Shown here: positions 39,389-59,568 of the stretch, in pieces | How the letters are laid out: every line of letters begins with the position of its first letter | How positions within the stretch are numbered: position 1 is the first letter of the stretch | Assembly (NCBI GenBank): GCA_018058095.1 | Contig: JAGPCO010000007.1 | Coordinates: forward strand, 1-64,000 | Source of the DNA: Kofleriaceae bacterium | GTDB taxonomy: Bacteria; Myxococcota_A; Polyangia; Haliangiales; Haliangiaceae | Direction: 5' to 3' | DNA length: 64,000 nucleotides | Translations under genes and position numbers: made by a program | The notes under the pieces: generated by a model | Told to the model about the DNA's origin: nothing | The model's input: only the letters and a program-made list of their open reading frames with translations | The model's database searches: none

Positions 39389-40894
<1,506 letters not shown>

Positions 40895-54522: not shown

Positions 54523-55593
54523 TCAGCCGGCGGCGACGGCCCGGCACACCGCGGCGGTGAAGCCGCGGGTGTCGGTGCTGCCACCGAGGTCGCGGGTCCG
54601 GGTCGCGCCGTCGGCGAGGGCGGCCGCCACGCCGCGGCGCAGCCGGTCGCCGGCGCCGCCCTGACCGACGTGGTCGAGCAGCATGGCGGCCGACAGCATG
54701 AGGGCGGCCGGGTTGGCCACACCCTTGCCGGCGATGTCGGGCGCGGTGCCGTGGACGGCCTCGAAGATGGCCGGCCCGGTCGCGCCGGCCGGGGCGCCCT
54801 CGGCCGGCGCGCCGAGGTTGGCGGCCGGGGCGACCCCCAGGCCCCCGACCAGGCCGGCGATGAGGTCAGACAGGATGTCGCCGAACAGGTTCATCGTCAC
54901 GATCACGTCGAACCGCTCGGGCGCGGTGACCAGCTTCATGGCGCAGGCGTCGACGATGACGTCGTCGAACTGGATCTCGGGGTAACGCGGCGCGATGGCC
55001 CGCCCGGTGTCGAGGAACAGGCCGTTGGACAGCTTGAGGATGTTGGCCTTGTGCACCAGCGTGACGCGCTTGCGGCCGTGCTTGCGCGCGTACTCGAACG
55101 CGTAGGTGATGATCCGCTCCGAGCCGTACCGGGTGATGATGGCGATCGACTCGGCCGCGGTCCGGCGCGGGTCGACGTAGTGCTCGACGCCGGCGTACAG
55201 GTCCTCGGTGTTCTCCCGGACCATGACGATGTCGACGCCGCTGTAGCGGGACGGCACGCCGGCCAGGGTGCGGGCCGGGCGGACGTTGGCGTACAGGTCG
55301 AAGTGCTGGCGCAGCGCGACGTTGACCGAGCGGAAGCCGGCGCCGATGGGGGTGCCGAGCGGGCCCTTGAGCGCGACCTGGTGCTGCTGGATCGAAGCGA
55401 TCGTCGCCGCCGGCAGCGGGTCGCCCAGGCGCTCGGCCGCGGTCATGCCGGCCAGCTGCCGGTCCCAGGTCACCGCGCCGCCGGCGGCGGCGATCGCCTC
55501 GCAGGTGGCGGCGGCGATCTCGGGGCCGATGCCGTCGCCCTCGATCAGGGTGGCGGTCACCGGGGACGACGACGAGGACGGAGCAGCGGTCAT
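54523..55593 (-). CDS. Isocitrate/isopropylmalate dehydrogenase family enzyme, likely NAD-dependent isocitrate dehydrogenase
   Basis: 356 residues. The beta-decarboxylating dehydrogenase fold is clear: LIEGDGIGPEI, KGPLGTPIGAGFRSVNVALR, DLYANVRPARTLAGV, VDIVMVRENTEDLYAG, VHKANILKLSNGLFLD, NLFGDILSDLIAGLVGGLG and FEAVHGTAPDIAGKGVANPA. The S-x-N-x3-R substrate site with RENTEDLYAG fits NAD-dependent isocitrate or homoisocitrate enzymes better than LeuB, which has a different motif there. It catalyses oxidative decarboxylation of isocitrate to 2-oxoglutarate. The ATG at 55593 overlaps the stop of the Rieske gene (ATGA), so it belongs to the kinase-regulator operon as its last gene. Ser/Ala linker at the N-terminus. 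Confidence 0.88.
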   Translation of the reverse strand: MTAAPSSSSSPVTATLIEGDGIGPEIAAATCEAIAAAGGAVTWDRQLAGMTAAERLGDPLPAATIASIQQHQVALKGPLGTPIGAGFRSVNVALRQHFDLYANVRPARTLAGVPSRYSGVDIVMVRENTEDLYAGVEHYVDPRRTAAESIAIITRYGSERIITYAFEYARKHGRKRVTLVHKANILKLSNGLFLDTGRAIAPRYPEIQFDDVIVDACAMKLVTAPERFDVIVTMNLFGDILSDLIAGLVGGLGVAPAANLGAPAEGAPAGATGPAIFEAVHGTAPDIAGKGVANPAALMLSAAMLLDHVGQGGAGDRLRRGVAAALADGATRTRDLGGSTDTRGFTAAVCRAVAAG

Positions 55594-55951
55594 GGCGGGC
55601 CTCCGGGCAGGGCGTGGGCGTAACGCGGTCGCGGGTCGATCTCGATCTGCCCGGCGTGCTCTCGCACGTCGAAGCGGGCCAGGCAGGTCTCGGGTGAGGC
55701 GTCGAGCGCGCCGGTCGCGCACGAGAAGCGCCAGCCGTGGACCGGGCACACGACGTGGCCGCGGCTGACGATGCCGTCGGCCAGGTCGCCGCCCTGGTGC
55801 AGGCAGCGCCGGGCCAGCGCGAACAGCACGCCGCCGGATCGGCCGAGCACGATGGCCCGGTCGCCGACGACGACGGGGCGCAGCTCGCCGTCGCCGACCT
55901 CGTCGGCGCGAGCCACCGGGTGCCAGGTCGTGGGTGGCGTGGTTGGCGCGG

Positions 55952-55955
<4 letters not shown>
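55590..55955 (-). CDS. Rieske [2Fe-2S] ferredoxin-type protein
   Basis: 121 residues. Ligands are C51-x-H53 in RRCLHQGGDLADG and C70-x2-H73 in VVCPVHGWRFSCATGAL, the standard Rieske order with about 16 residues between. The preceding beta strands (VGDGELRPVVVGDRAIVLGR) fit the small NirD/biphenyl-ferredoxin group, which moves one electron to an oxygenase or reductase. It is not membrane-bound. It lies between an NtrC-type regulator and an isocitrate dehydrogenase-like enzyme, both joined by ATGA overlaps. No partner oxygenase is in the window, so its electron acceptor is unknown. Confidence 0.9.
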
Positions 55956-57516
<1,561 letters not shown>

Positions 57517-57520
<4 letters not shown>

Positions 57521-58821
57521 CGCGCCCCCGTCGGCCGTGCCGGTGGAGCCGGGCCGGCCGCCGCCGCCAGCTCCGGCAGCGCCGGCAGGCGGACCAGCGC
57601 GGTGGTGCCCTGCCCGGGCGCCGACCGGAACTCGAGCGTGCCGCCGTGCTCCTCGACGATGCGCCGGCAGATGCCGACGCCGAGGCCGGAGCCGCGATCG
57701 GCCCGGGTCGAGAAGAACGGCTCGCCCAGCCGGGCCAGGACCTCGGGCGGCATGCCGAGGCCGCGATCCTCGACCCGGATCAGCGCGCGCTCGGCGCCGC
57801 TGGCGTCGAGCTCGTGCTCCAGCTCGACCACGATCTCGTCACCCGGGCGGGTCGCCAGCGCGGCGTTCGACACCAGGTTGATGATGACCTGCTCGATCTT
57901 GCGCTTGTCGATCGCACACAGCGGGCGCGCGCGCAGGCGGCGGCTGAGCCGGCGCTGGCGGACATCTCGGTCGTAGGCCAGGAGGTGCAACGCCTCTTCG
58001 ATGACCGCCCCGAGGTCGGCCGGTTCACGGGTCACGCCGCGCCCCTCGGTCGCACCCGGGAGGTCGCCGGCGGTCGCGAAGTCGCGGATCTCGTCGACCA
58101 TCGCCACCAGGCGGGTCTGGGCGGCGACGATGACGTCGAGCAGCTCGATCCCCTCGGGGTCGGCCGCCAGCCGCGCCTTGAGCGCCTCGGCGTAGCCGAC
58201 CAGGGCCAGGTGACGCGACAGCTCGTGGGCGATGCCGGTCACGACCCGACCGACCGCGGCCAGCTGCTCGGCCGCCACCAGCCGGCTGGTCGCGACCTCG
58301 AGCTCGTCGTGGGTGGTGGTCAGCTCGGCCGCGGCGGCGCTGGCCCGGCGCTGGGTCGCCACCAGCGCCGACTCCTGGCGGTCGAGCCGGCTGGCCAGGT
58401 CGGCCCCGCGCCGGCGCAGCACCCGGCGCTCGAGCCCGAGCAGCAGGCGCGGCGCCAGCAGCGCGGCGTCGACCGGCTCGTCGAGCACGGCGCCTGGCCC
58501 GACACGGCGGTCGAGCCCCTCACGCGCCTCGATCGGGACCGCCGCCGCCGACACCAGCACGACCAGGTCGGGGTCGCGCGCGGCCAGCCCATCGATCCAG
58601 GCCGGGGTGGTCGCCCGATCGGCCCCGGCGCCGATGACCACCGCCGCCAGCGCCTGGTCGTCGAGCCAGGCCTCGACGTCGGCGCGCTGGGCCGAACGCA
58701 CGATGGTCGCGCCCAGCTCGATGTGCTCGGCCAGCGGCCCGGGGGGCGCCCGCCACGCCAGCTCCCGGGCCAGATCGCCGACCAGCTCGGGACCAGACGC
58801 GACCAGGGCCACCGTGCTCAC
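57517..58821 (-). CDS. Soluble histidine kinase with pseudo-receiver N-terminus
   Basis: 434 residues from GTG. The N-terminal 130 residues (VALVASGPELVGDLARELAW ... LVVLVSAAAVPIEAREGLDR) look like a receiver fold without its acidic pocket. A coiled coil (ADLASRLDRQESALVATQRR) precedes HisKA with H199 in GRVVTGIAHELSRHLALVGY. HATPase boxes are IINLVSNAALAT, VEDRGLGMPPEV and FFSTRADRGSGLGVGICRRI. This is the NtrB/AtoS class with the HEL-type H box that normally pairs with NtrC-type regulators, and its stop overlaps the GTG of such a regulator. No membrane or PAS domain is seen. The promoter at 58833 is sigma-54-type. Confidence 0.9.
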
Positions 58822-58832
58822 GCAGGAAGTCT

Positions 58833-58848
58833 GGCAAGAAGGCGTCCA
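58833..58848 (-). promoter_or_regulatory. Sigma-54 (-24/-12) promoter of the kinase-regulator-Rieske-dehydrogenase operon
   Basis: The minus strand reads TGGACGCCTTCTTGCC from 58848 to 58833. GG and GC are ten bases apart, as required, and TTGC is intact. The expected +1 at about 58822 leaves a one-base leader before GTG 58821. The operon encodes an NtrC-type activator, so self-activation fits. Confidence 0.6.
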
Positions 58849-58861
58849 TCCGTCTAGACGT

Positions 58862-58879
58862 TGTCCAGCGCAATGGACA
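58862..58879. promoter_or_regulatory. Perfect inverted repeat operator candidate
   Basis: TGTCCA, six bases, TGGACA. It is a perfect 6-base inverted repeat between divergent operons, close to the sigma-54 element. The half-site TGTCCAG recurs at 58918. Confidence 0.55.
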
Positions 58880-58917
58880 CATGTGGCCGCAAGGAATGCG
58901 CAAACCAGCGAAATCAG

Positions 58918-58959
58918 TGTCCAGATACCTGGAATGGCGCTTGGATGTCTGGTGACCAG
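58918..58959. promoter_or_regulatory. Two further inverted repeats upstream of the ECF sigma gene
   Basis: TCCAG-ATAC-CTGGA at 58920-58933 and CTGGT-G-ACCAG at 58949-58959. Related in sequence to the 58862 repeat and roughly 70-110 bases from the sigma-54 element, suitable for enhancer sites of an NtrC-type activator. The second one lies next to the ECF gene's ribosome site. Confidence 0.5.
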
Positions 58960-58971
58960 GAGGACGTTTCC

Positions 58972-59568
58972 ATGCCGACCCGCTCACCTCGTTCCCGCCG
59001 CCCTGCCGCCGTCCCTGCCCGCCCCCGCTCGCCTCACCGCGTTGTATCGAGCGGCGCCCCGCTCGGGGCTCCGATCGACGCCGGCACGGTCCGCTACGTG
59101 TTTGCGGTGGCCATGAAGTACGTCCGCGACGAGGACGCGGCGTGGGACGTGACGCAGAACGCGCTGCTCGCGGCCCACCGCCACCGCGACTCCTTCCGCG
59201 GCGACTCGGCCTACTCGACCTGGCTGTACCGCATCGCCGCCACCTCCGCGCTGATGTTCCTGCGCCAGCGCCGGCGCCGCAGCCGCGAGGTGCTGGCGCC
59301 CAGCAGCACCGAGCCCTCGCCGCTCGACCTCGCCCCGGCCGCCACGCCGACGCCCGAGGATGCGCTGGCCGATCACCAGCTGGTCGCGGCCATGCGTGCG
59401 GCGGTGGCTGGCCTCGGCGACAAGTACCCGGCGGTGTTCTGGATGCGCTACGGCGAGGGCCGCAGCGAGACCGAGATCGCCCGCCGCCTCGGCGCCAGCC
59501 TGCCGGCGGTCAAGACCCGCGCCCATCGCGCCCTGCTGGCGGCGCGCCGCAGCCTCGACGCCGGGTGA
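58972..59568 (+). CDS. ECF-type RNA polymerase sigma factor
   Basis: 198 residues. After a basic 40-residue N-terminus, region 2 reads VFAVAMKYVRDEDAAWDVTQ and FRGDSAYSTWLYRIAATSAL, and region 4 reads LGDKYPAVFWMRYGEGRSET then EIARRLGASLPAVKTRAHRA. Regions 1 and 3 are missing, as in the ECF (group 4) class. No anti-sigma gene is adjacent. AGGAGG lies nine bases before ATG 58972; an in-frame ATG at 58945 is an alternative. It is divergent from the kinase operon across 150 bases with palindromes that could control both. Its targets are unknown. Confidence 0.9.
   Translation: MPTRSPRSRRPAAVPARPRSPHRVVSSGAPLGAPIDAGTVRYVFAVAMKYVRDEDAAWDVTQNALLAAHRHRDSFRGDSAYSTWLYRIAATSALMFLRQRRRRSREVLAPSSTEPSPLDLAPAATPTPEDALADHQLVAAMRAAVAGLGDKYPAVFWMRYGEGRSETEIARRLGASLPAVKTRAHRALLAARRSLDAG

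Follow-up and report, generated by a model that had tools for sequence, protein, structure and literature searches.

The window, by which we mean the whole 64,000-nucleotide stretch of DNA analysed here, carries an ECF sigma factor gene that is separated by a 150-base intergenic region (58822-58971) from a divergently oriented kinase-regulator operon (Table 1). The GTG at 58821 is backed as the kinase start by alignment to related kinases, and the H, N and G motifs of the kinase appear intact by eye. In the receiver of the NtrC-type regulator, Glu67 (codon 57320-57322, minus strand) occupies the phosphoacceptor column of the alignment, where relatives have either Asp or Glu, and one residue of the usual acidic pair is absent. 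The two proteins differ from a canonical phospho-activated two-component pair in that the phosphoacceptor Asp is not conserved in the regulator receiver, and in that the kinase gene is not adjacent to the regulator gene across the family. A second NtrC-type regulator gene is found elsewhere in the window (39743-40858, minus strand), and its product shares 47% identity with the regulator considered here.

The isocitrate dehydrogenase, Rieske and regulator genes probably form one operon. A preliminary description of this DNA had tied the locus to electron transfer and the TCA cycle; we found no evidence that the switch proposed below controls the Rieske or isocitrate dehydrogenase genes, the link consisting of gene overlap only. 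No anti-sigma gene was seen adjoining the ECF gene. The gap between the ECF gene and the downstream methyltransferase gene is only 37 bases in the window. In several relatives, the ECF gene is directly followed by a small gene whose product is probably exported (L063:8483-8884, L062:8661-8990 and L069:9977-10525), and this gene is missing here.

Table 1. Positions of the genes and sequence elements of the locus, in window coordinates.
Feature	Position	Strand	Remarks
Isocitrate dehydrogenase family protein gene	54523..55599	-	Overlaps the Rieske gene
Rieske 2Fe-2S protein gene	55590..55955	-	Overlaps the regulator gene
NtrC-type regulator gene	55952..57520	-	Receiver, AAA+ domain with GAFTGA, Fis-type HTH
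Soluble-type histidine kinase gene	57517..58821	-	GTG start; degenerate N-terminal receiver-like region
Kinase-facing GG-N10-GC of the preliminary description	58848-58833	-	TGGACGCCTTCTTGCC; judged a chance match
Dyad 1, candidate regulator-binding site	58843..58860	.	CGTCCATCCGTCTAGACG; 19 bp from dyad 2 in most relatives
Dyad 2, perfect	58862..58879	.	TGTCCAGCGCAATGGACA; 6-bp arms
Conserved CAA-rich block cAAnT-N4-GnAAT, between dyads 2 and 3	58902..58915	.	From gap-free alignment; window 2 bp shorter here
Dyad 3	58918..58935	.	TGTCCAGATACCTGGAAT; overlaps the -24 element of the ECF promoter
ECF-facing sigma-54-like promoter	58930..58945	+	TGGAATGGCGCTTGGA; -24 GG intact, -12 GC replaced by GG
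Third inverted repeat of the preliminary description	58949..58959	.	5-bp arms; downstream of the ECF -12 element
Ribosome-binding site AGGAGG of the ECF gene	58958..58963	+	
ECF sigma factor gene	58972..59568	+	Regions 2 and 4

The dyad array and a predicted ECF-facing promoter

Three dyads, starting at 58843, 58862 and 58918, are spaced 19 and 56 bp apart in the window, whereas most relatives have 58 bp for the second distance. All three copies share the consensus TGTCCA-N6-TGGACA across the order and class. Chance expectations were obtained from 3000 dinucleotide shuffles of 58822-58971. GTCCA-N6-TGGAC, a consensus read off the window and the related loci, was matched at no fewer than 9 of 10 positions three times against 0.009 expected, and none of the 3000 shuffles reached this count. 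Generic inverted repeats with 5-bp arms numbered five against 1.2 expected (P = 0.024). The block between dyads 2 and 3 is IHF-like in some relatives, and a role of that kind may be supposed for it.

The preliminary description had listed three inverted repeats, all of which are present. Those at 58862-58879 and 58920-58933 (5-bp arms) are the conserved dyads 2 and 3. The repeat at 58949-58959 has no counterpart in the leaders of relatives; it was discarded as a binding site and is probably due to chance. Dyad 1, whose core lies at 58844-58859, had been overlooked, as had the ECF-facing promoter element.

A GG-N10-GC element directed toward the ECF gene is found at a near-fixed distance in 27 of 27 relatives, with a T preceding its second G in 25 of them. 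Among consensus matches near the gene, it ranks first or joint first in most relatives and second in L007. The window element scores 11.7 with a promoter matrix (PWM) from whose building set the window was excluded, a score equalled or passed at 8 of 127956 positions on both strands of the 64 kb. At its -12 position, the window has G in place of C (TTGG), whereas GC is present in all 27 relatives. The leader geometry is kept, with a predicted +1 at about 58956, the AGGAGG at 58958 and the ATG at 58972. The imperfect -12 box is presumably used in the source species, where the promoter may be weak given this substitution and the 2-bp shorter spacing between dyads 2 and 3. The genome has a single rpoN gene.

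In most relatives, the centre of dyad 2 lies at -87.5 or about -97.5 from the predicted ECF +1, two positions that are one helical turn apart. The -24 box mostly overlaps dyad 3 in the kinase-containing lineages, and mostly lies about 10-11 bp, or one helical turn, beyond that place in the kinase-less genus.

Conservation and specificity of the array

An ECF gene divergent to a kinase-regulator pair, or to the regulator alone, was present in nearly all members of the order that were found, as well as in G035 and G366 of the class. The surrounding block (Lon, a glucose-dehydrogenase-like protein, a small protein, isocitrate dehydrogenase, Rieske protein, regulator and, where present, kinase on one side; ECF factor and methyltransferase on the other) is kept whole or in part, so the loci can be taken as orthologous. 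A scan of named genomes returned mostly distant ECFs and was of use only in placing the family as Kofleriaceae-like. Gap-free anchoring of 20 relatives gave the pattern tGTCCA...GTCTaGACa.tGTCCA......TGGACg......cAA.t....G.aAt.acttGTCc.......TGGAc, and the dyads are kept across order and class. In the regulator tree, absence of the kinase maps to one supported clade of 12 genomes (98/92) and to G035. The regulator, the sites and the ECF gene are retained in that clade and in the one further case of kinase loss.

The relatives that show this conservation are also those from which the dyad and promoter models were derived, apart from the held-out genomes G366 and G017. Dyads and a sigma-54 box are present in G366, where the dyad spacing is 25 bp and not 19 bp, while G017 has a sigma-54 box (TGGCACGGGATGTGCT) and one clear dyad only. 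The dyad pair is absent from 18 paralogous ECF genes of the same genomes. A search for the array pattern that allowed up to one mismatch gave matches in 12 of 36 genomes, one in each and at this locus, bar one doubtful extra match in the genome of the window; this match has one mismatch, no dyad 2 beside it and no clear promoter context, and was not accepted as a further target.

In G021, the best match to the regulator is only 43% identical and no orthologue is present; the dyads are absent and a sigma-54 box (TTGGCCCGGAGCTTGC) is kept. Its ECF gene (L078, G021:C365) adjoins a homologue of g50238, the arrangement that a deletion of the isocitrate dehydrogenase, Rieske, regulator and kinase genes would produce. 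We take the regulator to be the probable binder of the dyads because about 27 relatives conserve the array, each genome has essentially one array, and array and regulator were lost together in one genome. It is therefore very likely that the dyads act on the ECF gene as enhancer sites for the NtrC-type regulator encoded in the adjoining operon, as the preliminary description had suggested for its repeats.

Alternative readings of the region

It had also been suggested that the kinase operon is transcribed from a sigma-54 promoter at 58848-58833 in a positive, self-amplifying circuit, with the same enhancers also serving the ECF gene. The GG-N10-GC letters with TTGC are there as described, and the +1 would fall at 58822, one base before the GTG. 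Moreover, a TAnnnT element stands between the start codon and dyad 1 in some relatives but not in the window. This reading is nevertheless very unlikely, and the promoter was rejected as a chance match that is not conserved. One GG-N10-GC is observed in the 150 bases against 1.5 expected (P = 0.80), a site scoring at least as high arises readily in shuffles (P = 0.48), and the PWM score is 2.9 against the 11.7 of the ECF-facing element. None of the 21 comparable relatives, in which the dyad pair could be placed, has a GG-N10-GC at the homologous kinase-side place. The -24 TGG of the site is half of dyad 1, and a transcript starting there would be left without a leader. Because the kinase-facing promoter is unsupported, so is the self-amplifying loop, and self-limitation of the regulator operon is likelier. 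In two relatives (L027 and L046), dyad 1 adjoins or runs into the start codon of the kinase or regulator gene, so that bound activator would cover a promoter at that place and should hinder the operon.

This position of dyad 1 could also mean that the main role of the dyads is as an autorepressor operator for the kinase-regulator operon, with the ECF gene transcribed from another type of promoter, such as an autoregulated one of the GGAAC type. GGAAC or GGAAT does occur in the promoter element of many relatives. We regard this explanation as improbable, since roughly half of the relatives have no GGAA, whereas GG-N10-GC is found in all 27 and in the held-out genomes, and since the distance between promoter and dyads differs by one helical turn from lineage to lineage, as would be expected of an enhancer. 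An autoregulated GGAAC-type promoter was itself rejected, as only part of the relatives carry GGAAC. Least probable of all is that another DNA-binding protein occupies the dyads. Binding by the adjacent regulator is a prediction from sequence, and TGT-N12-ACA-like sites serve other Fis-type HTH proteins, for example PpsR (TGTC-N10-GACA); against this stand the strict linkage of the array to the regulator gene, their co-loss in G021 and the single array per genome.

A proposed sigma-54 to ECF relay

We consider it probable that the 150 bases serve as a sigma-54 switch dedicated to the divergent ECF gene and worked by the neighbouring NtrC-type regulator. The regulator would bind the three TGTCCA-N6-TGGACA dyads. 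Dyads 1 and 2, some 85-105 bp ahead of the predicted start of the ECF transcript, would act as an enhancer, and dyad 3 reaches the -24 box. Active regulator would then remodel sigma-54 RNA polymerase at 58930-58945 and presumably turn the ECF gene on, after which the ECF factor could redirect transcription to its own regulon. As the kinase-regulator operon begins within or beside dyads 1 and 2, the position of these sites suggests that bound regulator would probably limit its own synthesis by repression.

The switch appears to belong to a known type of circuit, in which sigma-54 relays to an ECF factor, as in HrpRS-hrpL and QseF-rpoE. Its candidate components are a -24/-12 promoter (in the relatives, G366 and G017, with the window departing at -12), a GAFTGA-containing activator with upstream enhancer sites, and rpoN. 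No description of the window locus was found in the literature. In Pseudomonas syringae, the enhancer-binding proteins HrpR and HrpS activate the ECF gene hrpL (ECF32), whose sigma-54 promoter lies in the intergenic region of a divergent gene pair (PMC8999054, PMC5263251). The window likewise has a sigma-54-like promoter before an ECF gene in such a region. However, the partner gene of hrpL is a HrpL target, whereas the divergent gene here belongs to the activator's own operon, and the proteins of the two systems are family-level relatives only.

The QseE/QseF system of Escherichia coli acts through sigma-54 on rpoE P2 and on glmY, where three UAS (TGTN12ACA or TGTCN10GACA) are used with the assistance of IHF (PMC6075780, PMC8745638). 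Both systems combine an NtrC-type regulator with an ECF gene as sigma-54 target, a predicted one in the window, and TGTC-N10-GACA, to which the Fis-type activator QseF binds (PMC8745638), also describes the window dyad. Unlike QseF, the window regulator scores far below the cut-off of the GlrR model (PRK15115, NCBIfam equivalog; 296.9 bits against 763), for which reason its identification as QseF/GlrR was rejected. The ECF gene here is also dedicated and adjacent, while rpoE is read from several promoters and its product has an anti-sigma factor (PMC8103513). In Streptomyces coelicolor, the CseBC two-component system turns on the ECF gene sigE (ECF39) at the level of transcription (PMC8999054); this system belongs to another lineage and group, and that review mentions no sigma-54 promoter for it.

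Glu stands in place of the phosphoacceptor Asp in the source species and several relatives, and the kinase has been lost at least twice with the regulator, enhancer sites and ECF gene kept. From this one might speculate, tentatively and with more doubt than confidence, that the switch is shifting from phosphorylation to another input, the relay being driven by regulator dose, a ligand or a partner.

Few sigma-54 to ECF relays have been described, and both parallels that we found are from gammaproteobacteria. The window relay appears to be part of a gene block that is stably kept in a myxobacterial lineage, and its operator is simple and readable. Loss of the kinase in part of the tree would provide a natural test of how a two-component switch keeps its output while losing its input.
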